Assembly (NCBI GenBank): GCA_004369045.1
Contig: ML213519.1
Coordinates: 62,001-126,000, forward strand
DNA length: 64,000 nucleotides
Direction of reading: 5' to 3'
Origin: Heliocybe sulcata
Taxonomy: Eukaryota > Basidiomycota > Agaricomycetes > Gloeophyllales > Gloeophyllaceae
The position numbers were made by a program, and so were the translations under genes. The notes under the pieces are model-generated. The model was given only the letters and a program-made list of their open reading frames with translations. It ran no database searches and was not told the DNA's origin. Below are positions 28,477 through 53,344 of the stretch, one piece after another. Position 1 is the first letter of the stretch; each line of letters opens with the position of its first letter.

Positions 28477-31400
28477 ATGAATGGCGAAAGCGATTCTGTG
28501 TTCCTTCTCGTCACAAGTACGTATGAACTTCTGGAAGGGATGTTGCACTAACGGTGTGTGCCAGACATTAGGGTGGAAGGACTCCCCCCTGTAGATGCTG
28601 GTGAAAGGCTAACGAAGGTGTTCATGCGTATCCGATCAGGGACGGTTGTCCAGCAAACGAAGCTCGTAAGCGTTCATGGGTCGTCGCATACATGGCCCAC
28701 TCCCATTATTCTGTACGTCCTCGCTCTTCTTTCACTGAAGCAGTGCTTATTGGCACCTCAGTTCCGATATCGATGCCCGAACTCCCGTCTCCCTTACTCT
28801 GCATTATACGCGATGGAGGGGGTCACAGATTGTAGGGAGTATTGAACGAGTGTTTCAATTCTTTCACGATCACAATGGTGAGTTCAGTATAGCTACTCGT
28901 GCTTCTTATTCCGACACTGTCATGAAGGGCAGGAACTGGACCTTGGTCTGAAATGTGCCAGCAGAGATGTCGGCCCCACTATCCGGATCGTATGCTGCAC
29001 TCGTCATGAGACGGTTAATGATGCCCTGCTGCCGTCTTTTCATCCGGGCAACGACGTCGCTAATTCACGGCTCACGCACGTGAACGATGTAGTCACAGCG
29101 CTGCACGGGCCAGCCGAGAATGTTGCAGAAAATGGGTCGTCGATCTCCTCTGTGCTCGAGTCTATTGAGCCATTTAAGGCGTTCTTCGATGAGGTTGCCA
29201 AGGTACGTCCAGGGACCGGGCAACTTCCCAGGAGATCCATAGTTCAAACTATTCTCGCAGATCCACCCCTTTGCAGCAGCAGCGTGGAGCTTGCTCTCCA
29301 TAGCATGGAATGTGCGCAATATACTCCCGGCTGTCATATGCCTATTGAATTATAACACTGCATGCAGGTCTTGCAAGCTGAGCGGACGCGGACCAAAAAG
29401 GCACTTGACCTATGGAACTCCATGGTCGCGGCGTACGAACTCGCGCGGGAGGACGATATGCTTCAAAAACTGAATGAGTTCCAGACAATCTTTGGTGATC
29501 TGATGAAGCAGACATCCGAGTGTGCGCTGTTCCTTTCGCAATACTTCTCCGGAGGTTTCTTCCGTACGCTGACCTTTCCCCTGGTCCTAAACTACAAATA
29601 GTAACGAGTTTATTTAGGTCGCCTGACTAATCTCGCTGCTGATAAGAAAATGGAAGCATTTCAAACTGCCTTTGTAGAGTTTCAAGGTGCATTCAGAAGC
29701 AAGGCAGTAAGGAAAATCACTGTCGTTTCTCTTGCTGCGTACGAAGGTATCAAATTTCTGGGTAAGGCTTCAGGCAGATTCCCTGGATTATGGGATCGTT
29801 GACGACTATCCTATCGCTGCAGAGCGGCAAACCCTTCTTCAACGACTCCAGCCTCACCCGCAAGACGGGAGTGCCGATAGCCGTTGCCTTGGTGGCACAC
29901 GCACGGAGTACATCAACGACATCTTGCAGTGGTTCTCTCGGGACGACAACTCTGTATTGTGGCTCACTGGGCCTTTGGGATCGGGGAAGACGACGCTGGC
30001 GTTCAGCATCGCGGACCACGTCTCTAACATTGGTCCTCGAGGGCGTCTTGGCGCGTTCATCCTTTTTCGCCGAGACGGGGCACTTGGAATGCGCGATGCA
30101 AGGCGGTTCGTAACGACGTTGGCGTACAAACTAGCCGAGTTTGACGACCGTATCGGTGATGGTGTTGCGAAGGCTGTTGGAAATATCCCGGACTTGCAGA
30201 TCTTGTCGCCGCATCAGCAGTTCCAGCGCCTGGTTGTCGAGCCTCTGATGAGTGTCAACGGGTTGAAGGACGGCGGTCCTCTCATGGTCCTGGTGGATGC
30301 GCTGGACGAGTGCACCCAAGGACAAGCGCGAGAGCTCCTGCTCAAGGATGTCATCTCAAAGGGATTCGGCCCAAGCCTGAGCTTCATCCGTTTCATACTG
30401 ACCAGTCGACCCACCCCCGACATCTCCGAAGTGCTGCTGAGTCCGCGGAATAATGGGATCATACGGCCACTGTGGATCGACGTGAATACTGAGCAGGCTG
30501 CTCGGGATATCCGTCTCTATTTCCAGACGAAGATTGCAGAGATTTCCGGGCGACTCCGAAGTACCGAGCTCAGCGAAGACGATATTCTTCAACAGCTTAC
30601 CGCCCGCGCAGGAGGTCTCTTCATTTGGGCGTCCTTGACCTACGAGTTCATCAGGGTACGTCCGGACGAGCATATCAAGCTTGTTCTAGGCGATGCCACA
30701 CACACAGTCCCCGATACCGATGAACGCCTCCGTCGGATGTACGAGACCACCTTGGAATATTTGGTCGGGGACATAAGTCGCACGTCCATCAAGAATGAAA
30801 TACGCGACTTTGTAGGCACCGTCGTCGTCGCTCAAACTCCCCCTGGGATGACGCCGGAGGTCATCGGCAGGCTCCTTGCCAATGGTCGATTGGCTAGCGA
30901 TACGTTCGACAGGCTCAAGACGCTCGTGACTTCAAGTGTTTCACAGCCTGTCCGGTTCTTACACAAGTCATTCTATGAATACTTGGAATACGAGACAATT
31001 TCTGGGGCCGCAGGATGGTATATCAGTGCTGAAGACTATCATAAGACCATAGCAACACATTGTCTCTCACGAATACAGGAGTATGTGGACGCACATATGA
31101 AGGATCCTCGGGATATTGAAAGCCTGCGTCTGGCGGAGCACCCGCAAGTTCCCTATGCAAGTCAATATTGGATGTACCACGTTGAGCAGATGAGTACGCC
31201 GGACGAGAGCATGGCGGAAAGGATCGGTCAATTTTTCTCAAAGTTTTACCTGAAATGGATTCATGTTATCCTGGTGCTCCGACAGTCGGATCCGGGCTAC
31301 GATGCTATTGGTCAGCTGGGAGTCCTGATCGACTGGGTTATGCGCGTGCGTGATCTTACCACTACGACGGTGGTGCATATACTCATCAGATACAACGTTT

Positions 31401-32507
31401 AACCAGAACCCCGGAGGATTAGACACCGCGTTGGTTCAGCACGCCCTTCAATTCCTCCGGCATATTTTGAGCCGCCACACCGTGCTCGACAATCCGGTGG
31501 CAGTCTATGCTGACGGACTAGAGTCTGCGCCGCCCACGAATCGTATTCGGCAAATCTATCTCACATCCGAACCGAAGGAGCGTCTCTCAGCTCCCGTGCC
31601 ACTCTGCCACCATACCAGCTGGGTCTTGAGTGTCACCTTCTCTCCAGATGGCCAGTACATTGCAAGCGCGTCTTTTGATCTGACTGTACAAGTATGGGAT
31701 TCGACGACGGGGGTGCTGCGATATTCTCACCTGAGTCACAGAGGCTGTGTCTACGCGGTTGCTTTCTCCGCCACGGGAGACAGGATAGTATCTGGAGATA
31801 GTCAAGGACATGTCTTTGTATGGGATGCCGTGACCGGGGAGAAGCTGTTCGACATCCCGGCCCATGAACAAGCCGTCAATACCGTAGCCATCTCTCCGGA
31901 CGGCAAGAGCATTGCTTCAGGGTATGTTGATGGCACAATTATTCTATGGGATGCCAGGACCGGCAAAGCGACGGTCGGTCCACTGCATGGCCATACAGAC
32001 CAGGTGCGGTCTGTTGCATTCTCGCCGGACGGGACACTCCTAGCATCGGGTTCTGAGGACGAGACTATCCGAATATGGGACACCTCCACCGGTGAACCCG
32101 TGGGCGAGCCATTGCGTGGACACACATTCTCCGTCACGTCGGTCTCATTCTCGCCTGATGGCACCTGCCTTGCTTCCGGGGACGATACCATCCGAATCTG
32201 GTCGGTCGCGACAGGCGAGGCGATAGGCAGTCCACTTAGGGGACATCATGATACTGTCACTTCCGTCGCGTTCTCACCAGAGGGCACCCGTCTGGCTTCC
32301 GCATCTGCCGATCAAACGATCCGAATCTGGGATGTCGCGACACGATCGACGATCCTCGGTCCACTGACGGGACATACCAATTGGATTTACTCAGTCGCGT
32401 GGTCGCCGGATGGAAGAAGGATAGTATCGGGCTCATGGGATTGTACAGTTCGAGTATGGGATGCATTGACCGGGGGAGTGTTGTTCTCCAGTAAAGGACA
32501 AACGTAG
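28477..32507 (+). CDS. NLR-like receptor 1: C2-like / helical / NACHT / WD40
   Basis: Nine exons (28477-28516, 28565-28712, 28762-28877, 28928-29202, 29261-29311, 29368-29563, 29618-29761, 29823-31345, 31407-32507) give 1197 residues in frame. Residues 1-101 resemble a C2 beta-sandwich (VEGLPPVD, then KVFMRIRSG, then VGSIERVFQFF). Residues 102-323 are a predicted helical domain (IHPFAAAAWSLLS, SECALFLSQYFSGGFF) like the N-terminal regions of fungal STAND proteins. The NACHT ATPase has P-loop GPLGSGKTT near residue 372 and Walker B LMVLVDALDEC. Seven WD40 repeats start near residue 897, enough for one beta-propeller. Fungal STAND proteins sense non-self or pathogen cues and oligomerise to trigger incompatibility or cell death; the cue here is unknown. 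Compared with the paralogue at 40-44 kb, a GAG-to-TAG change removes the last 33 residues and blade 5 lacks two residues. The rest is intact. Confidence 0.9.
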
Positions 32508-33600
32508 TCTGATAGTGTCGTGTTCATAAGGGTTCCCGTAGACGGTAGCTACTCTGACGAGGAGCATTGCCGATATATAAGAGCAGGCGAGGATGGAAAG
32601 CTCTAGAGCGTATTCACGCCAGATACACCTCCGTACGTCTCTTTGTAGCACCCGCGTAATTTGATATTTATTCGACTAGAACCGCCCCACGAGAAACGAT
32701 GAATCCCACTTCTATGGTACGGTAAGAAAGACAGCCTTATTTCGATTCAGCCAAACCATGACGGGAGGTGTCTTCGGAACAGGTACATCATTGTGTTACA
32801 ATGTTCCGGCTCCTGCTATCGTTGAACCGAACTGTCTGCGTTAGCGATGGAGAGAAGTGCTGTCATGTGTCCGCGACCGACGCACCGCCGTGTCAAGTAC
32901 GCCGCGATGAGCTTCATATCGATACATATTGACATCTCTGGAAGCGACGTAAGTACTCACTCGCCGCGCGGCAACAGGATTAACGGCCTAGTTGTTGGGT
33001 CCGGCATAGCTCCGTCCCCCACGTTCGAGGCAAGGGCAGGACTACCTGCATTATCTCGGAGTCTGTCAGTCCGAGACATAATACTATCAGAGAAACACTT
33101 ATCACGATGCTCATTATCCACATGTCCGCGTGACCGGTCCTTTCTTCGCCAACCGAATGTCCTGCGGCAACCGCTGTCTCGACTCTGAGGAATGAGCTCG
33201 CACACAAGCAATATGCGCAGCGTACCCGCATACAGAGCACATACAGGGCACCAAGCGAGAAGCACCTCGCTCCTTGTCTATTCATGGAAGGTCGTCCTAT
33301 ATAGCATGGTCATGCAAGCAAACTTGTCTGGCGCAGGATGCTGGAGTCTACGTATATCATTGACTGAGTAAGGTTAAAATGAGATCGCCTTACCTTAGCA
33401 TGTCCGTCTCGCTTGCAATACCACAGTTAAAGAACAGGGGCACTAGATTTGCCAGTAATCGAGCACGTTCGGACTGCATCGCCCACGGCAAAAGTCGTGA
33501 GCACGTAAGGAGCTGGCCCAGTCGAGCAGTGTTATGTCCTAGTGACTGATGATCCTTTCGTCACTAACCAATGTGCCTCGCTCGAAACCGTCCAAACACC
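32508..33600. other. 3' flank of NLR 1 and duplicated intergenic DNA
   Basis: The first about 130 bases continue the open frame seen in the NLR 2 paralogue (up to a second TAG at 32604) and then its 3' flank. The remainder aligns with 44050-45000, downstream of NLR 2. The short frames in it are not conserved as protein between copies. Confidence 0.6.
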
Positions 33601-33960
33601 CAGGTACCAAGCGTTCAGCAGGGTGGCTAGCGAGTGCCTTCACGTTCCCGCGAGCGCTGTTCAGTGACCTTTCGAAGGCGAAGAGCGCTCTGCTGTTCAT
33701 CGACGTGGCTAGATTTGCCAGGAGCCCCCTGGGGACGTAGCTGCAAGTTCGCTTGTGTCACTCGGAAGAGAAATCCCTCGCAGATGCTGATGTATATGAC
33801 GCAGATTCGTCTAGCCCATGATGCACGGAGCCAGCAGTCCATAAAGTCTCCTTCGGAATGCTTGCCTGCGCCACGCTGTTCAGCGGTGTATACGGTGCGC
33901 AGGGCGCGGCGGACCGATCGAAGTCAAGCTCAGGACAATACCGACAGTGAAGGATTGCGT
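33600..33960 (+). pseudogene. fragment of the MFS-like gene 3' end (relic 1)
   Basis: Positions 33640-33745 translate to AFTFPRALFSDLSKAKSALL and onward to a PLGT end. This matches LFAFVSLPPALFSDPSEIKS in the MFS-like gene near 23780-23890. 33870-33950 resembles that gene's last exon near 24000-24080. The fragment has no start and is interrupted, so it is a relic. Confidence 0.75.
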
Positions 33961-34009
33961 AGGGCAGCACTACCCGTCGACGTACGTACACATAACGGCC
34001 GACTCAGAA

Positions 34010-34350
34010 GCACCACATAGGCTTTCGAGCGCCTTCACCTTCCCGCCAGCGCTGTTCAGCGAGCCGTCGGAGGCTAAGGGCGCTCTGCCGTTCACCGACA
34101 TGGCCGCATCCGCCGGGAGCCTCCTGGGGTCGTAGCTACAAGTCCGTTTGTGTCGCTCGGAAAAGAAAACCATCGCAGATGCTGACACATATGACGGAGA
34201 TTCGTCTAGCCCGTGATGAACGAAGCTAGCAATGCATGAGGCGGCCTTCGGTACCCTTGCCTGCGCCACTCTGTTGAGCGGTGTATACGGTGCGCAGGGC
34301 GCGGCGGACGTATTGAGGTCAAGCTGAGGACAATACCGACAGTGAAGAAT
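34010..34350 (+). pseudogene. fragment of the MFS-like gene 3' end (relic 2)
   Basis: 34020-34135 reads SSAFTFPPALFSEPSEAKGA and ends SAGSLLGS, the closest of the three relics to SAGTLLGT in the parent-like gene near 23880. 34245-34345 again resembles the terminal exon. It lies about 380 bp after relic 1 in the same orientation, so the two form a decayed tandem pair. Confidence 0.75.
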
Positions 34351-34972
34351 TGCCTACCCGTCGGCGTACGTGCACACCAGAGCGGACTCAGACACACCAC
34401 GTCGATTTTCTTTGTCTTATATCCTTCCGCCTCTCTACGCAACACGTCACACAAGGTAACACAGTAAATAGATGGACACGAACGAGCGTTGTACAATCTC
34501 GAAAAATTGATGTCGTCAATGAGAAGAGGTTCGATGCAGTCAGCGACGCCGCAGAGAGCTGCGTTGTGCCGTGCGAGGCGGAGGCGCGCTATGGGGAGGT
34601 GTCGACGGCGAGTACTAGCAAGGGTGTGTAAATTCTGAACAGGACCAAGCTAAGAGCAAAACCAAGTCAACACGCTAATCTTATCTCTCCCGGCAAACCC
34701 CGCCAATCACCCGAGCGTCCTCCAGCCTCGCGTCTTGAATTGTCCTTCTAACCATGTCGAAATTGTACTTTTGAACAAGGTGCGCACCTTCTGACTCTCC
34801 GTTACTGGCCGCTGAACGTTGAACGTTGATTAATGATTAATGATTGGTCACCAGTCCTTCGCCGACGGATCTCAAGCATATGGGCTGATCACCATGTTCG
34901 GCGTGCCTTCTCCTCTCTCTCCTCCGCCTGCGTCTCTGACGGGGTGATGCAGACCTGCTTGACTCAGCGGTG

Positions 34973-35370
34973 CTAGGGTTTGTACAGAGTCATCTCAAGA
35001 GCAATCTCGGCACTCGTCCCTTCCTCTTTCGCTCTCCACTCGCCACGACAGGCAACCCAGCGCGTCCGCGATAAATACCACTCTGCATGGGAACGCTCAC
35101 CCATGCTGGAGAGGTGAGTGACATCGGAAGCAGCAGAGGGCCACAAGTACACAACCCAGTGTCTCACCGGCTTCATCTGGTCCGTCCGTCTCCCTAGCTC
35201 TGTACTCTCGCCTGACCGCCACAAAGAGGCCTCCTCTTCACCCTCACTGCCCTCCGCCACACCCAGTCCTCTCCCTCCGCCAAGCTCTACACCTGCTTCA
35301 AGAAAGCCTATGACGAGGTCCTTCGGCACCAAGAAGGCTGGACCGTGCCCTCCAGCGTCTCCGTAAGCTC
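34973..35370 (+). pseudogene. relic of an unknown gene, copy A
   Basis: Plus-strand segments encode DKYHSAWERSPMLE near 35070-35115 and LYTCFKKAYDEVLRHQEGW near 35287-35345. Both have counterparts at 46966-47320 (DKYHNAWERSPMLEKL; FKKAYDEVLRHQ). Conservation at the protein level suggests both derive from a real gene, but frames are broken between segments. I do not recognise the family. Confidence 0.45.
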
Positions 35371-35559
35371 CGTCTTCCGTCTTGTTCTCCTCTACCTCGC
35401 CTGTCGAATGGCACTTATACGATCATGACATTAATGACAGTTTGCCCGACCAATACAAAAAACTTCACCTTCGACTTTATATGACACAGCATGACTTCCG
35501 CCGTAACCAACTTTACCATCTCTGCCTTCGCCGGCTAGTGTCAGTGCCCCACCCGATTT

Positions 35560-35965
35560 CTTCCGCCGACAACACCAGGACGAGACTCGCCGCCGGTATC
35601 GCAGTGGCAGCAGAGGTAACCCTGCTGATTATAGCGGTTCTTGTGCGTGCATATAGGCGTCGCTTGCGCGACTACAAGCATCGCCTATCTCCCTTGAAAG
35701 GTGCGAAGTGCTATCCAATGAAGCAGCACGACTGTATCTCCTGTTCTACTGCAAGACGGAAACGCGCAGCCGAAGAGCGACTGGGTGTCTGGAGCTCCTA
35801 GTACCACCTCCGGAGCTGGGACTGCGTTGTCTGCCAGTTTACCGTCAAGTCGGAGCTTTGTGTGGCCAGACAATAGCCAGTACTCCGTCTCCTTTCCCCG
35901 ACGTTGGTCGAGGCTTGATGGGTGGGCGTATGCCACGTACCGGCAGGCCTTCAAGAATACTGTAC
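35560..35965 (+). repeat. dispersed repeat, second copy of 24470-24840
   Basis: Collinear with 24470-24840 over about 400 bp, with shared TACTGCAAGACGGAAACG and neighbouring blocks. Neither copy carries a conserved frame. Identity of the repeat is unknown. Confidence 0.6.
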
Positions 35966-37784
35966 CAACTTGTCCATCCCGACGTCCCTCGGACCGTCAG
36001 CAACACGTTCACAAGTCGGCTGCTTAACACGACTGACTCTATGTCGAATCGCTCAGAGCCGCTCACCCTTAAACCGGACGGTGTCGAGTGCACCGGTCGT
36101 TTCAAAGTGGCCATCTGAGTATGGGAGCTTGGCGAGGAGTGGTGGCGTGCGGGAAGGTATCATGTCCATGCCCCTCGCATTCGACGTACATGTAGATACC
36201 TGTACCCGCGATGAGGAACGCAGGAGCATGATATTTGCTCAGAATTTGTCTCTCAAAGTTTCCTGCGTTATGCTTCTATCTGCTTGCCCTAGAACTCGCT
36301 TCGTCTAAGCTTTCGACACCAAAAATCTATAGCACGTCCGCCTCGCTTACAATATCAGAGTCAAAGAGCTTCTGCACCTGAAATATTGGCAATGATCGAG
36401 CGCGTCCGGACTGCATGGCGCACGGTGAAAGTCGCGAGCAGAGAGGAGCTGGCCAGTCGATCAGTGGTACTGACTGCTGGTCCTTTCTTTACTTACCGAT
36501 GTGCCTCGCTCCAGCTCGTCAAGACACCCGGGCACCATCTTCGACAGGACCGTAAGGGGTCAGGATGAACTATCTCACGACAGCTGAAGTCCTCCTGTAG
36601 GGAGAGGGTTTGCCTCGGTGCTATTCGAGTCGCTTTCGATTCCCAGTCGGTCGCGGCCTGTTCTCCACTGCCGCAGGGCGCGTTCTTCCCCGTCGACCCC
36701 GCGGGTATATCTGCAACCCCTACTTGCAAGTACCACGGTCGGACGACAGTATCCAGTGTTCGAATCCATCCTAAAATGAATCTGAGGTGAAAAAACGCAG
36801 TCTGACGGTGTCGCGCACATTCTGCCACTGGAAGGCTTACATTCCAGTAGCATCTCCGCTCGTTTGCCGTACGTTCGATTTTTCGCGGCTCAGGCTGCGC
36901 CACGAAGGTGTGACTAGACAAGTGTAAGCAGATGTCACCAGTGACTATCGTGTAAATAAATACTTCGCCGCCGTACTGAGAACCCGTCATAACTAGAATA
37001 CGTTTGAGGCAGTTGCTGAAACACACCTCATAACAGAATGGCGGAACCCGAAGACAGGAGATGTGTCACATGGGCATCGCCGACACCGTATAATCAGCCT
37101 TTCAACATCACGACGCGAGAGCTCATCGCGAGCGAATGTATGGTTGTAAATCCATCCATTCATTTTGCGGCAGCTCCCTGAGCTTCATTGCGTGTAAACC
37201 CAGGGACAGGTAGTCGAAGTTCGCACCGCGAGGCCTTGAGGAGCGGTGATGTACTATCCTCGACATGTTGCAAGTAGTCGCTGACACTGACCGTGCCCGG
37301 ACCGGCGGCAGCTAATCATCGTGGTTATCAGCGCTCATGGCGGGCGAGCCTGACGCCCGTAAGGCCTTGCTTGGCACTCTGCATTCATCGATATTGTGCG
37401 GAGAGTGTAGCTCAGCAAGGTTCCTCTTCACCACTGCATTGATACTCGCATACCTGAGCATCATATCCCCGCAATGCAACTACGACTCAGTACATCCCCT
37501 CCTGCCCACCCCATAATCCTCCGAAATAACAGCACGCAATCCTGAGATTGATCCCCATCCACTACTCTTCGACCGACGCTTCCGCCGTCGCTGCCGCTGA
37601 TTAGCTCCGATACATCTTCGAGTCTGACGTTCCTCGGCAGGGAATACGTCCCGTTCTTCGTGGTCTTGCGCGGACGGTCGAAGAGTCCTTCCGCCGGTAT
37701 AGGTTGGATGGACGAGAGGGAGCAGGAGGGATGGACAAGAGCCACAGCGTCGGCGGAGAAATTTGGCGCTTGTGGGAGACCGGT
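35966..37784. other. duplicated intergenic DNA without a gene
   Basis: 36310-36560 is the third copy of a sequence also at 33400-33600 and 44805-45000 (shared CGGACTGCAT and GGTG/CGAAAGTCG blocks). 36575-37060 matches 48600-48960. No protein frame is conserved between copies. Confidence 0.55.
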
Positions 37785-38460
37785 TCACTCGAGCCGATGC
37801 GCTATGGGTATATGAGCACTTGCGGTGACTATACGGAGAGCCAAAGGTTTCCGTGCCCGTCGATCTTCGCTGGCGGCCCACAGCACAGCGAGCGTCTGGC
37901 TTATGAATATTACCTCGCGATCTTCGCTACCCATCCTGCACAACTTGTAAGCGTCAGCAATAGGGAGAAGTGCGAAGGACGTACGAGCGGTACGCGAATT
38001 CGAATGAGTTTGCGAGGGTGAACACGATATGGTCTGTGATGCCGTGGAGGACCATGTCGTCCCATGCGAGGCCGACGCGGGCGAGGATATTGTCGACTGC
38101 AGTACTACGGAAGCGAAGGGATCAAAATGTGATTGTGTGTAGAAGCGGGAAATCGTGGGCGGTGTACTAGAACAAGAAAGAGGCAGATGATGGATGGGAG
38201 GAATATTAAAGTCTGAAAGCTGCAATACTCACCTCTCTCGCATCGCAAACTGAATCGCGTTCGCTCCCACCCACAGAACGCATCCAATCGCGCATCAAAT
38301 GGGAACCGCTCGCGAATAATCGCAGCGTTGGTTTCCGGCCTGACCGAGAACCAGCCGACCTGGTCGAGCAGCGCGCACCGATTGTAAAGCAATGTTGTGG
38401 GAGAAATTTGGAAAAAGACTGCTCAGCCATGGGAGGGAAAGGAGAGTAGAGTATACGCAC
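37785..38460 (-). pseudogene. relic of an unknown minus-strand gene, copy A
   Basis: On the minus strand, segments near 38350-38230 (CALLDQVGWFSVRPETNAAI) and 38075-37960 (RVGLAWDDMVLHGITDHIVF) look like protein and recur in weaker form at 48215-48080 and 47960-47860. Frames are broken between segments. The family is not recognised. Confidence 0.4.
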
Positions 38461-39842
38461 TTTCGTTTGTCTTCGGAGACTTCGTCCTTGTCCGTACAGA
38501 ATGGGATGAGTCGGTCGCGTCTAGCGCTCATGCACATGGCCGGGGATCGTTAGTCCAAATTCTGCTGTTTTGGAGGAGAAGGAATAGAACTTTGGTTGTC
38601 TCCGGGCGGGCGGTTGAGTCGGGCGCTAAGCAGAATGGCTCGGGCGATTGGGTCGGAGTCTGGGAGAGAGTGTGGTCCCCGAGTGCCGTAGTCCTCGCTT
38701 TTCGCCCATGTCGTCTTAAAGATGGGATAGCCAAGGGATAGCTGAAGAATAGCGGCGGAACCTTAACCTTGGGTAACTCCGACTCAAGTACGCCTACGCT
38801 TCACGCTCGATTTCCTCGACGCTCTTGACGGCCTATCTTGGTGCTCCTCCATTTGTCGCGACCAATGCATTCAAGTCCCTCGACTAGAATATTTGCTGAA
38901 ATCGAACAAGCCATCGACTCGGAGACCTGATCGGTTGTTGGCAGGCTGGTGCGCATTGACATAGAGCTGTACGGATAGTCTACCCCTTTACTGCCTGTAG
39001 AACAATGGTACGTCTTTGCCACTTGGACAACTTTCGCCTCTCTAATTCCAACCAGGTTTATATATGTCGTGCTACTCCATGTACATCTGTTCAGCCTCTC
39101 TGGTTACAAACGAGGAGACCGTCTAGTTGTCTTTTATTGAAATATCTGGTGGTTCGATGAAACCAATAATGTCCAGCGCAGTTCCCTACCTTCTTGAGTC
39201 ACCATCGCCCAAGCTCCCTCGATCCAGGCCGGCCCCACTAGTCAGGAGACCCACTACGCATATCGTTGCTGTGATTGCTCGGTCCGCAGCCTCGAATCTT
39301 CCTAGACTGCTGTCCACCCGGATATCGCGATCTATTCATCATGCACGGACTTGTTCAAGAATACTCCTTTCAACGCTACACCCTGCGCAGGTCTGATACG
39401 GCCCTCATTACACAGGAAGATTTCCTTGTAGCCTCGGCTCTTCCTTACGCCTCTATCCGGCAACTCTAGCCACCTGAAAGAGCTTGCTTTGTGTCGTCGA
39501 TATGAAAGAAAAATTTTGATTGCATTTCAACGTTCTATATGGGCACCTTCGGATTTCCTCTATCGTCACTCGTGGCCGTACAGAGAGCCCTTGCACAGGG
39601 AGCCTGCCCGCTTGCAGCAATCAAAGTGCTTCCTGTGATTAGTTGTACTCTGTGTTCCCGGCAACACTTGCGGCTGTGCGCGGCTCAGTTCCATTCATGT
39701 CTTCTGACGGGCGTCTATCGTCCTAATATTAGTCCTGCATTAACCACGAGGACAGATCGTACCGTGAGTCTTTGCATTGCTTTTCGCTCGTCCCTTAAGA
39801 ACCTCTTTGCCGCGCGTCTGGGCTTGTACAGTTGTCTTCGGC
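38461..39842. other. intergenic region upstream of NLR 2
   Basis: 38461-38840 is the end of duplication copy A. 38841-39842 has a few frames of up to 116 codons with no recognised content and should include the promoter of NLR 2. Confidence 0.45.
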
Positions 39843-42800
39843 ATGCCTACCGACGCACTCGACGCGAGTGCGCGTACTGCCTTGCCTAGGAGAGACGATA
39901 ACAATGCTGTTACGTTCCTTGTCGTCATGGGTGAGCACAGGATGTCCGGAATGTAATGGCTTGGTGAGCTGACAAGTTATCGTAGAGATCAGCGTAGAGC
40001 ACCTTCCGATAGTCCACAAGAAGCCGAAGGCCTTCGTTCGCATTCGTGCCGGCAATGATTTCAAAGATACGGGAGCTGTGAAGGTGAAGAGCTCCTCACT
40101 GCGCTGGCAGGACGGACTTTACATGTACGCATGTATGCGTATTCGCTGTCACTATACTGAGATCGCATGGCAGAGCCGACCTGAGCGCTGCATCCAGTGT
40201 CGCCTTTGAGTTATACTACCAGAAATGGTGGCTGTGGAAGACGTGCATGGGAAGTGTTGAGCGTCCTTTAAAAGATGTTCGCGGCAACAAAAGTGAGTGG
40301 ATCCGTGCTCATAATCCAGCTATGCTGATGCAGCACATGGAAGCCTTCGAGTTACGCCTGCCGTCGGGAAGCTATGGAGTGAATGTCAATCCAGTTGTGC
40401 ACGTTCACTGTTTCAGCGACTACGAGGCCGCTGTAGGCGCTCTTATCGACTCGCAGGATGCAAATGTCGAGGGCGCAAACTCGCGGATTTCTGCCGTTGA
40501 AGAGGCAGCGGACAAAGTCCAGTCAACGGCGCAGGGGAGCTCTGATACTTGGGCATCGCTTGCGCCAATGATTGATAATATCCAACCGTTCAAAGACCTG
40601 TTCGATGAGATCGCCAAAGTACGTGACAGATTTATCGTGTTGCTGTCGTTCTTGTGCTTGCTTAACACGGGGCATCATAGGTGCACCCAATCTCCGTCAC
40701 CGCTTGGGGCTTACTTTCGATTGCATGGACGGTATGTCCCAATCGCGCGCCCGTCTGGTTTCTGATGAAGTGACATTGTGCTGCGTCGACAGGTTTTACA
40801 ATCCGAGAGGACAAGAACGAAAAAAGTCCTTGCGTTACGACAGTCAATGATCAGTGTATATTCAGTTGCACGAGAGAAGAACAAGCTGAAGGAGCTAGAC
40901 GAATTCAAAGAGCTCTTCCGGGATCTCATGAAACAAACGATGGAGTGCGCGTTATTTCTATCACAGTACTTCTCGAATGGTTTCTTTCGTACGCTGCTGT
41001 TCCTATCATGATGTGCCATCATCCTCTAACATGACACGTGGACCAGGACGGCTGACCGACACTGCGGCCGATCAGAAGATCCGAGAGTTTACACTAGCCT
41101 TCCAAGATTTCCGTGACCGTTTTCGTGACACCGCGCTTGAGAAGGTCACCGTAGTTTCTGTAGGCTGCTACCAGTGTCTACAGCGCCTGGGTGAGCGTCC
41201 TTTGTCCGGCGAAGTTATCACTCTATTGAGGAACTTATCGCCAGAGAGACGCCATGTCCTTCAACGTCTTCACCCCCATTCTCAAACCGGGATGGCTGAT
41301 GCGAGGTGTCTGAATGGGACTCGTGAAGAGTATATCGATAGGGCCCTGCGATGGTTCTCTCAGGAGCACGGCAGCATCCTATGGCTGACGGGTCCTCTCG
41401 GCTCAGGGAAAACCACTCTGGCGTTTACGATTGCCGACCGCGTCATGAGCATTGGACCTCGCGGAAGGTTGGGGGCATTTATACTCTTTCGCCGGGACGG
41501 CTCTCTTGGACTGCGCGACCCGTACCGATTCGTGACTACCTTGGCCTACAAGCTCGCCGAGTTCGATGACAGGATTGGAGATGCGATTGCAAATGCTGTT
41601 CAGGTTATCACCGATCTCGACGTGCTTTCCGCACAGGAGCAATTTCGCCAACTGATCGTAGCGCCGTTGCTCTCCATTCGAGACCTCGAGAATGATGGCC
41701 CAATCATGGTGCTCGTCGATGCGCTTGATGAATGTGCACCAGGTCAGGGACGCGAGGTGCTTCTCAAGGACGTCATCTCCATGGGCTTCGGTGCCGGGCT
41801 GGATTACATCCGATTCATAGTCACTAGCCGGCCAACGAATGATATTAGCGCAGTCATGAATCCCATGAAGAACAGCAAAGTGCGCTCATTGTGGCTGGAT
41901 GTTCAATCTGAAGAGAGCATGCGAGATATCCGCCTCTACTTCGACCACAGGTTGAAGCCTCTGGAGCTCCGAGAGCAGGATATCGGGCACACACACGCTA
42001 AGCTCGTCCAGGAGCTGTCCAACCGCTCTGGCGGACTATTCATCTGGGCAACTTTGACTTACAGATTTATTGAGGGATCGCCTGTCAAGCGAATCAAGGT
42101 TGTACTGGACGATCCATCTCAGTCATCCCCCGACACGGACGAGCGTCTCCGAGCCATGTATCAACATACTCTGACGCAATTGCTTGGCGAAGGGAACCAA
42201 GCTGATATCCAAAAGGAGATGCACACCTTTATTGGGGCGATCGTCATGGCCCACAATCCTCCTGGCATGACCCGTAATGTCGTGGCCGGTTTATATGGGG
42301 ACCGTCGCCTGTCGGACGACACTTTCGACAGGCTGAAAAGTCTTATATCATCCGACGATTCACAGCCCGTGCGCTTCCTCCACAAGTCCTTCTACGAGTA
42401 CATCGAAGAGGCGAAGCTCTCTGGGTCATCAGGCTGGCATGTAGATGCGAATGCCTGCCACAAGGAGCTTGTGCTTCTCAGCTTTTCGCACTTGCGGGAT
42501 TGGCATCCACGCGACAATGCGGACGACCATCGTCAGCTATGGCTGGATATGCCGCACCTTGCTTACGCTTTCCGATACTGGATGTACCACCTTACGCAGA
42601 TGAGCAACTGGGACAATGATATCTTCCAGGGCGTCAATGTGTTCTTCCGCCAGCACTACTTGAATTGGATTCACGCGGTCCTTATTTCTTGGAAGTCAGA
42701 GTCCGACCTAGCATATAACGCGATTATTCCCCTGGGTGGCGTAGTATCGTCCTACATCACGGTGAGTACCACCTTCTATGTTCCTCCTCTTCTCTCTTAA

Positions 42801-43999
42801 TAGAATTTCAGTTCGGCTTGGATGCTGAGCTATGCCAACATGCATTGGCATTCCTACGACATATTTCCGGTCACCCTACAGTTTCAAAGAATATTTCTTT
42901 ACTCTACACTGCTGGACTTGAGTCGGCGCCTCGCACCAACCGTATTCGGCAGATATATCTCGGACTTGAGCCAGAGGAATTCTCGCAACTCTGCCATCAT
43001 ACCGGCTCGGTCTGGAGTGCCCTGTTCTCCCCAGATGGTCAGTACATTGCAAGCGCGTCTCATGATGGGACTGTACAAGTATGGGATTCGACGACGGGCG
43101 CGCTCCGATATTTTCCCCTGAATCTCGGAGGTGATGTCTACGCGGTTGCTTTCTCCGCCACGGGAGACAGGATAGTATCGGGAGATAGCCAAGGACATGT
43201 TTTTGTATGGGATGCCGCGACCGGGGAGAAGTTGATCGAGGTCCCGGCCCATGAGGATGATGTTAATGCCGTAGCCTTTTCTCCGGATGGCAAGAGCATT
43301 GCTTCAGGGTCTGGCGATCGCAGAATTATTCTATGGAATGCCAGGACCGGCCAAGCGACGGTCGGTCCACTGCATGGCCATAGATACTGGGTGTGGTCTG
43401 TTGCATTCTCGCCGGACGGGACCCTCCTAGCATCGGGTTCTCGTGACGAGACCATCCAAATATGGGACACCTCCACCGGCGAACCCGTGGGCGAGCCATT
43501 GCATGGACACGAGTCCGACGTCATGTCCATCTCATTCTCGCCTGATGGCACCTGCCTTGCTTCCGGATCCGGGGACAAGACCATCCGAATCTGGTCGGTC
43601 GCGACAGGCGAGGCGATAGGCACTCCACTCGCGGGACATCATGATACTGTCACTTCCGTCGCGTTCTCACCAGAGGGCACCCGTCTGGCTTCAGCATCTG
43701 CCGATGAAACGATCGGAATCTGGGATGTCGCGACACGATCAACGATCCTCGGTCCACTGACGGGACATACCAATTGGATTTACTCAGTTGCGTGGTCGCC
43801 GGATGGAAGAAGAATAGTATCGGGCTCACGGGATTGTACAGTTCGAGTATGGGATGCATTGACCGGGGGAGTGTTGTTCTCCAGTAAAGGACAAACGGAG
43901 TCTGATAGTGTCGTGTTCATAAGGGTTCCCGTAGACGGTAGCTACTCTGACGAGGAGCATTGCCGATATATAAGAGCAGGCGAGGATGGAAAGCTCTAG
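39843..43999 (+). CDS. NLR-like receptor 2: C2-like / helical / NACHT / WD40
   Basis: Nine exons (39843-39930, 39986-40124, 40174-40292, 40320-40618, 40681-40731, 40793-40988, 41047-41190, 41245-42761, 42812-43999) give 1246 residues in frame; exons 5, 6 and 7 have the same lengths as in the other two paralogues. The C2-like domain reads ISVEHLPIVHKKPKAFVRIR and ends near VGSVERP-like MGSVERPLKDV. The helical domain includes AWGLLSIAWT and MECALFLSQYFSNGFF. The NACHT P-loop is GPLGSGKTT near residue 395 and Walker B is IMVLVDALDEC. Seven WD40 repeats start near residue 911, followed by a 33-residue tail after the last blade. The first exon is longer than in the paralogues by 15-16 codons. Role as for other fungal STAND receptors: a signal-activated ATPase with a propeller sensor. 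It is the most complete of the first two copies and shares the WD40 exon with NLR 1. Confidence 0.9.
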
Positions 44000-44980
44000 A
44001 GCGTATTCACGCCAGATACACCTCCGTACGTCTCTTTGTCGCACCCGCGTAACTTGATATTTATTCGACTAGAACCGCCCCACGAGAAACGATGAATCCC
44101 ACTTCTATGGTACGGTAAGAAAAACCGCATTATTTTGATTCAGCCAAACGACGATGGAGGTGTTTTCGGAACAGATACATCATTGTGTTACGATGGTCCG
44201 GCTCCTGCTATCGTTGAACCGAACTCTCTGCGTTAGCGATGGAGAGACGTGCTGTCATCTAGTCGCGACCGACGCACAGCCGTGTCAAGTACGCCCCTCT
44301 GAGCTTCCTATCGACACACATTGACGTTTCTGGGATCGACGTACTCAGTCGCCGCGCGGCAACAGGTTTAACGGCCTAGTTGTTGGGCCCGGCCTAGCTC
44401 CGTCCCCCACGTTCGAGGCGACGCCAGGGTCACCTGCATTATCTTGCAGCATGCCAGTCCGAACCATATTATCAAGAGCAACACTCATGGCGATACTCAC
44501 TACTCCCGCATGTCCGCGTGATCGGTCCATTCGCCGCCAACCGAACGTCCTGCGGCTCCCGCTGTATCAATTCTGAGGAATTAACTCGCACACAAGCGAC
44601 TTGTGCGGCGAACCTGCGTACAGGGAATCAAGCAAAAAGCACCTCGCTCCTTGTTCATGCATGGAAGGTCGTCCTATATGGCATGGTCCTGCAAGCAAAC
44701 TTGCCTGGCGCCGGCTCAGGGACATCGTGGGTGACTCACAGGAGATAACGCTGGAGTCCACGTAAATCATTAATGAAGTGAGGTTAGAGTTGAGATAGAC
44801 GTACTATAGCATGTCCGTGCTGGCAAAATCAGGGCCCAAGGAAAGCGGCACCTGATTTGCCAGTAATCTAGAGCGTTCGGACTGCATCTCACACGGCGAA
44901 AGTCGTGAGTAGATAGGGAGATGGCCCAGTCGAGCAGTCGTAGTGACTGCCTATCCTTTCGTTACTAACCTATGTCACTC
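44000..44980. other. 3' flank of NLR 2 and duplicated intergenic DNA
   Basis: This matches 32640-33580 downstream of NLR 1 with moderate divergence that increases away from the gene. No conserved protein frame. Confidence 0.6.
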
Positions 44981-44989
44981 GCTCGAACC

Positions 44990-45680
44990 AGCGTCCAGAC
45001 GCCCGGGTGCCGATGTGGCTAGCAGGCGCCTTCACGTTCCCGCGAGCGCTGTTCAGCGAGCCTTCGGAGTCGAGGAATGCTCTGTTGTTTACCGACCTGG
45101 CTGGGTTGGAAGGCGACCCCGCCGGCACCAAGTATAAGTCCTGTTGCGTCACTAGTACTCGGGGAAGAAGATCTGGCGGGTGCTGATACATTGTTGGAAT
45201 TTCGATTTTGACGGTTTCCAGGTACAAGCTCGCAAGCTCGCTGATGGGGGGAGGGGGCCGCCGGAGGCGGCCATGGCTGAACGTTTCGCGAGTTTTGTAT
45301 ATAATCGCTGTATCACTACGATATACGCTACGCGATTACCCTTCGGGCAACCGAACGCTCGAGGACAAGCGCGCCCGTTCCACAGCCTATCGATTATTTC
45401 TTCATACATATGGCGCAGATTCGTCTAGCCCGTGATGTACAAAGCCAGCAATGCATAAGGTCGCCTTTGCCGTATGCGGTGTGCAGGGCGCGACCGACGG
45501 GTCGAAGTAAAGCTGAGAAGAAGTATGTCCCTCAGTCGAAAGGGCTTGCTGCAAAAGTGTAATTTTACATGCCGTACGAGCTGCCTGCAGGTGATTGGGT
45601 AGGTATCTTCGCGCGAGTAAGCAGTCACGGAAAGCCGAGCGTGTTCGTCCCAGGCCAATTTCAGCAGGGGAGTCCTGGTA
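44990..45680 (+). pseudogene. fragment of the MFS-like gene 3' end and its flank (relic 3)
   Basis: 45022-45115 reads AFTFPRALFSEPSESRNALL and onward, matching the MFS-like gene near 23780-23890. 45465-45570 matches the terminal exon including the AEEEYVPLQ region (here EKKYVPQS-like). 45570-45680 resembles noncoding DNA after that gene (24130-24260). The homology thus covers coding and flanking DNA, which argues for DNA-level duplication, not a processed copy. A low-complexity GGGGGGAGGGGG-type patch lies near 45245. Confidence 0.75.
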
Positions 45681-49140: not shown

Positions 49141-52100
49141 ATGAATGCAGGCGATATCTCCTCACCTTTCCTGGTTGTCATGAGCGAGTACAGGGCTACG
49201 TGTCCTCGAAAGGGTCCGCATGCGAATTAACGACGAGTTATAGATATTGTTGCCGAGGACCTGCCTCCAGTTGACACTACCGGGAAAATACCAAAGACGT
49301 TTCTGCGCGTTCGCTGTGGGACGGATGTTCAGAAGACTGAAGTCTTGCGGTGGCAGGGGCCATCGCAGACATGGGTTAACCCGCTTCGGTTGTATGGATT
49401 TTTTCCCCCTCATTTTCTGGTGCGATACTGACGTCTATCAGCTCCAACATTGCTTCTGACTCCACTGTGTCGCTCACGCTCTACTATAGGCGGTGGAGGC
49501 AGGAGGAAGTCGTGGGAAGCGTCGAAAAGCCTTTTTCGTTTTTCAATGACTACAACGGTAGGTTCAGCTTGCATCGTTATATCAAGATTTCTTTTGAACA
49601 GCCGTAAAAGCGCGCGAGGTCGCTCTTGCGCTGCAGTGCTCCGATGCTCGCGTGAAGACCACCGTTCGTATCTTGTGCTGTACCGACTACAAAGCTGTCA
49701 ATGGTGCATTACTGGTATCTCTTCCTCCAAGCAACGATATCGCCAATCCAGGTATAGATACTGTCAGCAATACCATCACTACTTTACAGGGCCACCTGGG
49801 TGCTGCCACGGATGCCTGGGCACTTCTGTCACCCACTCTGGAGTCCATCGAGCCGTATAAACAACTTTTCGACGAGGTGGCGAAGGTACGTAGCTGTGTA
49901 TTATAATGGGAGAGCTCGCCCCGACCGAGCGTATCATTGCAGATCCACCCGTTCGCGGCAGCCGCCTGGGGCTTACTCTCCTTAGCATGGAATGTATGCG
50001 CCCAACTTCTACTAAATCCTGGCCAAAATTCACTGCGTGCGCCACACAGGTGTTGCAAGCCGAGCGGAATAGAACGAAGAAGGTGCTCGATCTATGGGGA
50101 TCTATGGTCGAGGCTTACAAGGTCGCGCAAGAGGACGATATTCTACAGAAGGTCGATGAATTCAAAGAGCTCTTCAGCGATCTGATGAAGCAGACATCGG
50201 AATGCGCTTTATTCCTGTCGCAATATTTCTCGGGAGGCTTCTTCCGTACGTGGCACTCCTTTGTTGCCATATGATGGAATGAATCAAGGCACCGTTAAAT
50301 AGGCCGGCTAACTAACGTCGCTGCTGACAAGAAGATCGAAGAATTCCAAGGGTCATTTAGTGATTTTCACGAAGCCTTCCGCAACAGGGCTCAAAGGACA
50401 ACTGTTATAGTCTCGCTTGCATCGTATGAGTGCGTCAAATTCATCGGTAACGTTTAGGCTCCATTGTACAGGTAACAAATTGCTGAAATCGGTCTCCATC
50501 CAGAGCGACAAGTGGTACTCCAACGGCTCCAGCCGCACCCTCAAGACGGAAGCGCCGACAGCAGATGTCTGAGCGGTACCCGATCGGAATACATCGACCG
50601 GGTGCTGCGATGGTTCTCTCAGGAGGAGAGCAGCACCCTGTGGCTGACAGGCCCGCTTGGCTCCGGTAAGACGACGCTTGCGTTCAGCATCGCAGAGCAC
50701 ATCTCGAATATCGGCCGAGGGCGGCTGGGCGCTTTCATTCTATTCCGCCGGGATGGCTCGCTGGGCATGCGAGACCCGAGACGGTTCATTACGACGCTGG
50801 CGTACCAATTGGCTGAGTTCGACGACCGTATCGGAGATGCGATTGCCGCAGCTGTGGGGAGCAATCATAATCTGGAGACGCTGCCCGCCCACCAACAGTT
50901 CCAGCGGCTGGTCCTCGAGCCGCTGACGAGCGTCGTGGGACTGAGGGACGGTGGCCCGATTATGGTTCTGGTTGATGCTTTGGATGAATGCGACGAAGGC
51001 CAGTCGCGCGAAGTGCTCCTCAAGCACGTTATCTCGAAGGGATTCGGACCAAATCTAGACTTCATTCGTTTCATGGTGACGAGCCGACCGACTCCGGACA
51101 TCTCGGAGTTGCTCAATCCGCTCAAGAACCCGGATATTCGCCCGTTGTGGCTGGACGTGGAGACGAAAGAGGCTGCAGGGGATATCAGTCGGTATTTCCA
51201 GGCGAAGCTGGACGAGATGCAGGTCTTAGATATGAACGGGAACTTTGAAGGCCGCGACGTAGTGCAAGAGCTCACGGAGCGTGCTGCAGGCCTGTTCATC
51301 TGGGCGACCTTGACATACGAGTTCATCAAGGTGTCGCCGGCGGAACACCTCAAGCTCATCCTATCGGATGCATCATATTCATCTTCAGATACAGATCAGC
51401 ATCTTCGCCGGACGTATGAGACAACACTCGAATATCTTGTTGGCCACCGTGGCGTTGATTCCGTCAAGAACGAGGTCCGCACTTTCATTGGCGCTGTTGT
51501 CGTTGCCCAGACACCTCCGGGCCTTACACCCTACGCCCTGGGCCGCTTATTCGCGAACGAGAGAATCGGCTCCGATACGTTCCAAAGACTGAAGACTTTG
51601 ATAGCTTCTGATGAGTCGGAGCCCGTCCGTTTCGTACACAAGTCTTTTTACGAGTTTGTCGAAGACGAGGGTTCAAAGGCGGCTGGCTGGTACATCAGCG
51701 GGAGCGAGTGGAACAGAGTGATGTTCTTGACCTGCATGTTGAGGATGAAAGAGTACATGGCGACCTACATGGAAGATCCTGCTGATTACAAACCGGTCAG
51801 CTGGCAAGACGACGCTCATATCCCTTATGTCTGCCAGTATTGGATGTATCACCTCATCGGTGTAGAAGAACCGGATCCTGAGGTTCAGGACACCGTTTAT
51901 ACCTTCTTCTCGACGCTGTGGTTGAAGTGGATCCATATCGTTATGCTCTTCCCCAAGCTTCCGGGTTATGACCTCGTCAGCAGCTTTAATTTAGCTGTTG
52001 CTTGGGCTGTGAAGGTGGGTGCTGCGTCGCTGCCATGTGTGGAGATTTATGCTCACAGATTTGATATTGTAGAAAGACGTTTACAAAGCGATGTTCCAGC

Positions 52101-53344
52101 ATGCGTCGCAATTTCTGCAGATTGTCCTCCGCTCATCCAGCGTACAAGATCGACCACATACGGTATATTCTGAAGGGCTAATGTGCATTCCGCCGAGTAA
52201 TTCTTTCAGATGGATGTATCGACACGTCCTTCCCGTTACTACTTATGTACCGGCGACTGAGGCCGATGTGCCGGTGCTTCTCGAGCAACAAATCCCAGTG
52301 TCAGCTGTGGCCAAGGATATTCCTTCTGCAGATGCTAAGGAAGGTGCGACCCCCGCTAAAAAATCAGCTCCTGTTCCCACTACGACAGTGGGAGACTCGA
52401 AAATATCAGAGATCTGCCATCACTCTGGCCCAGTCAACTGTGCAGCATTTTCCTTGGATGGCCAGTGCGTCGCGTCTGGGTCTTGGGATGGCACGGTGCA
52501 AGTATGGGACTCGACTACCGGGCTGCTTCGTTATCCCCCGCTGAAGCCGGGAGGTGGTCAAGCCTACAGCGTCGACTTCTCCGGAATCAGGATAGTGTCT
52601 GGGCACGGCGACGGCCACGTCCGCGTGTGGGACGCGGAGACGGGACAGAGTTTGCTCGACGTAGCTGCCCACCAAGACTACGTGCGAAGCGTAGCTTTTT
52701 CGCCGGATGGAAAGCACGTCGCCTCGGGTTCTGACGATATGACCGTCAGCATCTGGAATGCTGCAACTGGCGAGCAAATCGTCGGCCCGCTGAGGGCGCA
52801 TACAGCCTGGGTCTGGTCTGTTACATTCTCACGTGATGGGAACCTGCTTGCCTCGTCTTCTAGGGACAGCAGCATTCGTATCTGGAATACGAAAACAGGT
52901 GAGGCTGTCCATGACCCACTACGAGGACATCAAGGGCCTGTATTCTCAATATCTTTCTCGCCGGATGGGAACACTCTGGCTTCAGGCGGGTCTGACAAGT
53001 CGATCCGCTTTTGGTTAGTCGCCTCGGGCAAACAGGTCGGGGCCGCGCTACAGGGGCATAATGATTCGGTCAACTGCGTAGCTTTCTCCCCGGATGGGAC
53101 TCGTCTCGTGTCGGCGTCCGCGGACAGCACCATCCGCGTTTGGGACCCTACGACAGGGTCGATGATTCTTGATCCACTCTTGGGTCACACCAAGGATGTT
53201 AGCTGCGTCGCATGGTCACCTGACGGACGGAAATTGGTCTCTAGTTCTGGGGACCGAACCGCTAGGATTTGGGATGTCTTGACTGGGGGAGTGTTACTCG
53301 TCAGTAGAGTGAGCGATTTGTGGGTGAACATGGGCGGACCATAG
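49141..53344 (+). CDS. NLR-like receptor 3: C2-like / helical / NACHT / WD40
   Basis: Nine exons (49141-49183, 49244-49388, 49442-49557, 49602-49885, 49943-49993, 50050-50245, 50303-50446, 50504-52014, 52073-53344) give 1253 residues in frame. Intron 1 starts with GC, not GT; its position is exactly that of intron 1 in NLR 1 and NLR 2. The C2-like domain is the clearest of the three (VAEDLPPVD, TFLRVRCG, SLTLYYRRW, VGSVEKPFSFF). NACHT has GPLGSGKTT near residue 376 and IMVLVDALDEC. The WD40 part is more diverged from NLR 1 and 2 than those are from each other. It has seven repeats from about residue 943, preceded by a longer linker rich in Ala, Thr and Pro. It lies 405 bp from, and converges on, the helicase/AAA+ gene. 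Confidence 0.9.

Follow-up and report, generated by a model that had tools for sequence, protein, structure and literature searches.

How two neighbouring receptor genes came to carry nearly the same sensor while differing strongly elsewhere is the question raised by a cluster of NLR genes in the basidiomycete Heliocybe sulcata (assembly GCA_004369045.1, 31.6 Mb in 51 contigs, intron-rich). The cluster lies in a stretch of 64,000 nucleotides of contig ML213519.1 (contig bases 62001-126000), which is called the window here and to which coordinates refer unless the contig is named. It holds three complete NLR-type genes, all on the plus strand and each with nine exons whose places match:

28477-32507, plus strand: NLR1, nine exons, 1204 residues, with a C2-like and helical N-terminus, a NACHT-type NTPase and a WD40 propeller of seven repeats (spliced model, open frame)
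39843-43999, plus strand: NLR2, nine exons, 1246 residues, with the architecture of NLR1 (spliced model, open frame)
49141-53344, plus strand: NLR3, the third cluster member, nine exons, 1253 residues; its first intron (49184-49243) has an apparent GC donor (GC-AG), as read from the sequence alone

The splice sites of the three genes were chosen by eye, and their support consists of the open frames and the agreement among the genes. A fourth, broken copy lies on the same contig upstream of the window (minus strand, contig positions ~34200-41880). The comparisons described below indicate that NLR1 and NLR2 are related by a transfer of the sensor and its 3′ flank between non-sister NLR genes, and that the amino acid differences between the two sensors gather at a few repeat positions. 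As far as sequence can tell, the mosaic is real and well supported, and the concentration of changes at particular sites is strong.

The homology between NLR1 and NLR2 has an abrupt start, at the position-13 codon of blade 1 (NLR1 31638, NLR2 43025), and defines the following tracts:

31638-33700, plus strand: exchanged tract in NLR1, comprising the propeller from strand A of blade 1 onward and ~1.2 kb of 3′ flank; identity rises from 62% to 82-98% and drops near 33700
43025-45095, plus strand: exchanged tract in NLR2, the probable recipient according to the identity profile and the silent distances to the broken copy

In 150-bp windows, the two genes were 40-69% identical upstream of 31600 and 79-98% identical over 31600-33699. 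Windows of 100 alignment columns gave 39-73% to ~31645, 82-100% to ~33040 and mostly 77-88% to ~33700. The nucleotide difference fell from 37.5% over 31390-31636 to 11.8% over 31637-32203, 4.2% over 32204-32416, 3.3% over 32417-32507 and 2.2% over 32508-32740, and then rose to 13.3% over 32741-33100, 18.5% over 33101-33700 and 50% over 33701-34000. A first-pass annotation of this DNA had described the two WD40 regions, including the 3′ flank, as nearly identical outside small patches. A similar tract does begin at 31638, but it reaches further than described, to ~33700, and blades 6-7 differ little. The 150-bp identity profile and the whole-tract dN/dS ratio given below (nonsynonymous over synonymous distance) were calculated with a provisional alignment and a provisional numbering of blade 2, whereas the later site tests used the corrected numbering.

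When the tract was used as a DNA query against the assembly, matches were confined to NLR1, NLR2 and the broken copy, which gives three places for propeller DNA. The 3′ flank matched at four places in the genome, all of them inside the cluster. The WD40 DNA of NLR3 is ~60-65% identical to that of NLR1 and NLR2, and by this measure NLR3 took no part in the recent exchange. Within the tract, two length differences separate the genes: NLR1 has a TAG stop codon at 32505-32507 (plus strand) where NLR2 has GAG (43898), so that NLR1 is without the 33 C-terminal residues of NLR2, and an in-frame deletion removes 6 nt from blade 5 of NLR1, leaving two residues fewer in the B-C turn (positions 24-25). 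In the 3′ flank of NLR1 there is also a direct repeat (33625-33924 and 34020-34319, 82% identical), with a diverged further piece at 36330-36537, ~2.9 kb downstream.

Outside this tract NLR1 has a different closest relative. Its NACHT protein sequence is 86% identical to that of the broken copy, compared with 61% for NLR3 and 54% for NLR2, and an alignment of its DNA with the broken copy, 3010 columns long and covering 5′ exons, introns and 5′ flank, shows 76.9% identity. The closest partner of NLR1 switches to NLR2 at 31600, with at least 82% identity in every 150-bp window to 33100. The silent sites show the same switch: between NLR1 and NLR2, silent sites are saturated in the NACHT region (proportion of changed silent sites, pS, 0.77-0.78), and the silent distance in the propeller is only 0.13. 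The silent distance between NLR1 and the broken copy is 0.54 and 0.36 in two parts of the NACHT region and 0.47 in the propeller; between NLR2 and the broken copy, the NACHT region is saturated and the propeller distance is again 0.47. In this count, the first piece of the broken copy takes in a few codons past a frameshift, which has a small effect on the NACHT distance. The first-pass annotation had proposed a recent duplication or conversion. Silent sites are saturated in the remainder of the two genes, and NLR1 has the broken copy as its sister in the 5′ part; a recent duplication of the whole gene is therefore rejected, and a conversion limited to the propeller and the 3′ flank fits the data.

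Mosaic genes alone do not tell which half moved, and the same pattern could be read as a recent tandem duplication of the whole of NLR2, followed by replacement of the 5′ part of NLR1 with a copy of the 5′ part of the broken gene. A replacement after duplication is expected to be younger than the shared propeller, but the silent distance between NLR1 and the broken copy in their 5′ parts shows a greater age (0.36-0.54 versus 0.13 for the propeller), and this assembly yielded no 5′ donor closer to NLR1. We regard this history as very improbable. In the simplest order of events for a sensor transfer, NLR1 and the broken copy would be an old pair, and the NLR1-type propeller and flank would later have been transferred to NLR2. 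The silent divergence somewhat favors this direction, with NLR2 as the recipient. The broken copy itself gives a divided answer at the codons that differ between NLR1 and NLR2. At the 14 changed codons of the four repeat positions introduced below, it agrees with NLR2 in 4 cases, with NLR1 in none and with neither in 10; at the 27 other changed codons, it agrees with NLR1 in 14, with NLR2 in 7 and with neither in 6. These numbers are too small to settle the direction.

The inferred direction is weakened by the stretch between NACHT and propeller, where the silent distance of the broken copy to NLR1 is as large as 1.33 and 0.94. The broken copy would then itself be a mosaic, or its halves would come from two genes, and these halves may not have one history. 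The copy is split in two by a 7.7-kb insert containing a long terminal repeat (LTR) element, and its reading frame is broken elsewhere too. One open frame of the element encodes a reverse transcriptase domain of the RVT_2 type (E = 1.1e-56), and because its two 285-nt ends are 98.6% identical, its insertion into the broken copy was probably recent.

Within the exchanged tract, the similarity is not uniform. The following segments stand out:

32204-32740, plus strand: younger conversion in NLR1, covering blades 6-7 and the 3′ untranslated region (UTR), with 2-4% difference and an identical run of 141 nt that starts at 32506
43597-44133, plus strand: the same in NLR2, with the identical run from 43899

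The 141 identical nucleotides sit inside flanks that differ by 12-18%: blades 1-5 differ by 12%, and the sequence further out differs by 13-18%. The codons of the four repeat positions changed between NLR1 and NLR2 in 2 of 8 cases in blades 6-7, versus 12 of 17 in blades 1-5. From these profiles, blades 6-7 and the 3′ UTR appear to have undergone a second, younger conversion, which would have reset those blades.

The coding tract differs between NLR1 and NLR2 at 78 of 867 aligned nucleotides. As the first-pass annotation had claimed, the differences are clustered in patches: 31 gaps between neighbouring differences are 3 nt or shorter, a number matched in only 3 of 5000 permutations. All five peptide pairs that it had quoted (HTDQVRSV/HRYWVWSV and others) are present in the frames given there. 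Blades 1 to 7 carry 5, 7, 11, 6, 8, 3 and 1 amino acid differences, respectively. We numbered the repeats by anchoring them on V8 and D26, since positions 7, 9, 25 and 27 of HET-D/E flank the conserved positions 8 and 26. With this numbering, the variable patches coincide, again as claimed, with the sites reported for HET-D/E, namely, repeat positions 7, 9, 25 and 27 (PMC1805685). Amino acid differences were found in 14 of 25 codons at these positions versus 27 of 264 elsewhere (Fisher odds ratio 11.2, p = 2.3e-7), and only 5 of 20,000 random four-position masks did as well. The changes are listed here, all on the plus strand:

31674-31682: blade 1, B-C turn, positions 25 and 27; F and L in NLR1, H and G in NLR2 (43061-43069)
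31746-31748: blade 2, position 7; C in NLR1, D in NLR2 (43133)
31872-31874: blade 3, position 7; A in NLR1, D in NLR2 (43259)
31926-31934: blade 3, B-C turn, positions 25 and 27; V and G in NLR1, G and R in NLR2 (43313-43321)
32001-32009: blade 4, positions 7 and 9; Q and R in NLR1, W and W in NLR2 (43388-43396)
32055-32057: blade 4, position 25; E in NLR1, R in NLR2 (43442)
32130-32138: blade 5, positions 7 and 9; S and T in NLR1, D and M in NLR2 (43517-43525)
32184-32186: blade 5, position 27; D in NLR1, K in NLR2 (43577), adjoining the 6-nt deletion that takes out positions 24-25
32313-32315: blade 6, position 27; Q in NLR1, E in NLR2 (43706)
32436-32438: blade 7, position 25; W in NLR1, R in NLR2 (43829)

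An AlphaFold2 model of the NLR2 propeller, built from a four-row alignment, was seven-bladed, with a mean predicted local distance difference test (pLDDT) score of 85.7 and a predicted template-modelling (pTM) score of 0.83. Its closest structures in the PDB were a bacterial WD40 domain and designed seven-bladed propellers. The 33 residues beyond the NLR1 stop codon form a low-confidence tail of the model (model residues 323-355). In the repeats scored, the model places positions 7 and 25-27 in loops, and position 9 opens strand A. Following PMC1805685, we took positions 7, 9, 25 and 27 to form the top, ligand-facing ring. Elsewhere in the loops of the repeat, at positions 14-18 and 34-37, the residues are conserved.

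As the differences are clustered and multi-nucleotide, the patches might have been pasted in from other WD40 repeats, by repeat shuffling as in Podospora, where an 88-bp conversion between repeats was reported in a mutant (PMC2873952). Two patch windows in each of the seven blades of NLR1 and NLR2, 28 in all, were set against the corresponding windows of the remaining repeats in the four genes; none had an exact match in another blade, the best having 5 mismatches in 21 nt. The repeats average only 41-46% identity to each other, with a maximum of 0.68, and the whole tract matches nothing in the assembly outside NLR1, NLR2 and the broken copy. Repeat shuffling is thus a highly unlikely source of the patches.

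A fixed-sites codon model, with its two site classes set beforehand, supported diversifying selection at the four positions. For the NLR1/NLR2 pair, omega was 6.52 at these positions (p = 1.2e-7 versus 1) and 0.53 elsewhere (p = 9.5e-13 versus equal omegas); when the broken copy was included, the values were 4.45 (p = 1.5e-10) and 0.36. The proportion of changed replacement sites (pN) at the four positions, 0.355, was three times the silent rate of the tract (pS 0.119, p = 3e-5), and a codon-level binomial test with the tract's own silent rate as the reference gave p = 0.0017 for the excess. When the 43 repeat positions were tested singly on the three copies, omega was above 1 and nominally significant at six of them (2, 6, 7, 9, 25 and 27). 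Transitions make up 43 of the 78 changes, and by this measure alone there was no strong excess that would point to a mutation bias of the repeat-induced point mutation (RIP) type.

Several results weigh against selection as the cause. After 43-fold Bonferroni correction, positions 7 and 25 alone survived, and 7 of 41 rotated masks also gave omega above 1, the best reaching 3.09. Over the whole tract, pN was 0.080 and pS 0.119, with a ratio of 0.65 for the corrected distances (dN/dS); the statement of the first-pass annotation that the differences mostly change amino acids is therefore correct for the patches and does not hold for the domain as a whole. With the most diverged part of the 3′ flank (18.5%) as the neutral reference, the excess had p = 0.064 for all blades and p = 0.0085 for blades 1-5, and the proposed diversification of the sensor surface, which the fixed-sites model supports, is weaker by this conservative measure. 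In comparisons with NLR3, pN at the four positions was not above pS (0.67/0.74, 0.54/0.75 and 0.66/0.70), a comparison that is uninformative for selection because the silent sites are saturated. Finally, two or three nucleotides are changed in 9 of the 14 altered codons at the four positions, and a codon model that proceeds by single steps turns such changes into a high omega; silent divergence also seems elevated close to the patches (0.172 versus 0.090, p = 0.13), as would fit patches older than their surroundings.

The whole-tract ratio below 1 and the p value of 0.064 would suit relaxed constraint only, with propeller loops drifting in the two genes. Drift is not expected to raise replacement change at the four positions to three times the silent rate, nor to give omega well above 1 there while the remaining loop residues stay conserved, and we consider it a rather improbable sole cause. 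A slightly better case, although still an unlikely one, can be made for the patches being relics: conversion would have homogenised the sequence between them, and the two genes would have kept their old specificity residues, with selection rejecting conversion there. The nominally higher silent divergence near the patches (9.0/52.3 versus 14.0/155.2 sites), the silent change within the four-position codons themselves (3.5/14.5) and the multi-nucleotide codons speak for it. Such a history requires many separate, sharp-ended conversion tracts of tens of bases. It also predicts that patches older than the exchange are equally far apart in all comparisons, but the four-position codons differ in 14/25 cases between NLR1 and NLR2 versus 22/25 and 19/26 against the broken copy and 22/25 and 18/26 against NLR3; in blades 1-5 this gap is small (12/17 versus 15/17 and 13/18). 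For this one genome, diversifying selection at positions 7, 9, 25 and 27 between NLR1 and NLR2 appears likely.

Taken together, these results make it probable that the sensor was passed between NLRs of the cluster, each receptor keeping its own switch and effector halves, that a narrower conversion followed, and that ligand-facing residues came under selection, with the functions read from the families to which the domains belong. NLR1 and NLR2 have the propeller and the 3′ flank in common and the rest of the genes separate, presumably through ectopic gene conversion with NLR2 as the recipient. A later, narrower conversion brought blades 6-7 and the 3′ UTR back to near identity. Amino acid changes between the copies are gathered at positions 7, 9, 25 and 27, and by the single-position tests also at 2 and 6, with the scaffold conserved and diversifying selection as the presumed driver. 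The variable residues would form the top face that touches a ligand, which would be a protein, either non-self or from the host and under surveillance. Its binding would open the NACHT switch, the protein would oligomerise, and the N-terminus would trigger cell death or another response. We infer this effector step, because a C2 domain was matched weakly and in NLR3 only and the Goodbye model gave no hit.

The domain assignments were as follows. NPHP3_N, a NACHT-like NTPase model, scored far above its cut-off in all three genes (E = 2.6e-20 in NLR1 and 4.7e-19 in NLR2), whereas the Pfam NACHT model stayed below its own cut-off (22.9, 18.6 and 24.3 versus 26.7 bits in NLR1, NLR2 and NLR3). Pfam recognised 7, 7 and 6 C-terminal WD40 stretches in NLR1, NLR2 and NLR3, respectively. 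In a Pfam scan of the first 345 residues with E values up to 1, no HET domain model was listed and no Goodbye model matched for any of the three proteins, and no C2 match was obtained in NLR1 or NLR2. In NLR3, C2 matched at residues 11-96 (E = 0.0028, 18.3 bits, under the cut-off of 22), and the sole match in the region behind it was a weak one to DUF7708 (E = 0.11). Across the genome, NPHP3_N had 10 matches, 4 of them in the present cluster, which is few next to the 72 NLR-like hits that PMC4986451 reports as the mean for an agaricomycete species, a figure obtained with a different counting method.

Beside NLR3, on the minus strand at 53750-59813, lie open frames whose domains are of the helicase type (AAA, AAA_lid_6 and AAA_11) and which perhaps belong to one large multi-exon gene. 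Elsewhere in the window, a tandem direct repeat of 217 nt occupies 11205-11421 and 11533-11749 (85% identical, spacing 328), and a search of the whole window with Rfam at gathering scores gave 0 matches. On contig C22, two WD40 matches of equal score lie in opposite orientation ~9 kb apart (417480-417590, minus strand; 426329-426439, plus strand), perhaps as an inverted duplication. A laccase exon has matches to basidiomycete laccases in the PDB.

Among known systems, NLR1-3 are likely members of the agaricomycete C2/Goodbye-like NLRs. PMC9815663 describes the N-terminus of C2 plus a Goodbye-like region as specific to Agaricomycetes and links the latter to the HeLo/MLKL cell-death superfamily; the N-terminal order (C2-like, then helical) and the NACHT-WD architecture are the same here, but C2 was matched in NLR3 alone, below the cut-off, and the Goodbye model not at all. 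Clustering itself is shared with the NLRs of Sordariales, whose authors suggest that clusters promote conversion among partly homologous NLRs; these fungi belong to a different phylum, and in the text of PMC12258605 conversion stands as a suggestion without a dissected case. Within the open-licence PMC literature, we recognised no earlier description of the sensor exchange reported here.

The closest fungal parallel is formed by the NWD/HNWD genes of Podospora anserina (HET-D, HET-E and HET-R). They also combine NACHT with WD40, their WD40 domains evolve apart from NACHT through exchange between loci, and the same four positions are reported to be under positive selection (PMC1805685, PMC2873952). 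In Podospora, near-identical single repeats are shuffled and the repeat number varies, with 11 in the active alleles cited and ~10 as the stated minimum; in Heliocybe, seven diverged repeats forming one propeller moved as a block, and the Pfam scan listed no HET domain. HNWD genes have highly conserved internal repeats, for which PMC4986451 sets the criterion at more than 85% identity, against a mean of 0.41-0.46 and a maximum of 0.68 here. A further trait of that family is allele-specific incompatibility with a polymorphic partner. Because no HET domain was found and the repeats average 41-46% identity, NLR1-3 are judged from their sequences not to be HNWD members. In Podospora, the exchange of near-identical repeats and the selection at four positions coincide, and it is hard to tell which of them makes new specificities. 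In Heliocybe, the same positions stand out in the absence of near-identical repeats, so that site-specific selection would be independent of repeat shuffling.

Tentatively, and with considerable doubt, the WD40 propeller might be regarded as a transferable recognition cassette: whole-sensor conversion would spread it to receptors that differ in their switch and effector halves, narrower conversion would keep part of it uniform, and selection would rewrite the ring of residues that also diversifies in ascomycete allorecognition genes, all of this without repeat shuffling. If this were true, the cluster would be a candidate locus for allorecognition or pathogen recognition in a group whose somatic incompatibility mechanism was called 'completely unknown' in a 2021 review (PMC8229728). 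For basidiomycetes, the cluster offers a defined locus and defined residues for genotyping. It also shows recombination of recognition and signalling halves between neighbouring receptors, as in the NLR-B30.2 genes of zebrafish, in which NACHT groups are distinct, conversion of the sensor crosses group boundaries, and surface regions of the sensor are under positive selection (PMC4852459). There, the sensor is B30.2 instead of WD40, nearly 400 genes are involved, and the arrangement is of unrelated origin. On our analysis, the exchange of a whole sensor in Heliocybe is nonetheless closer to zebrafish NLR-B30.2 than to the repeat shuffling of Podospora.

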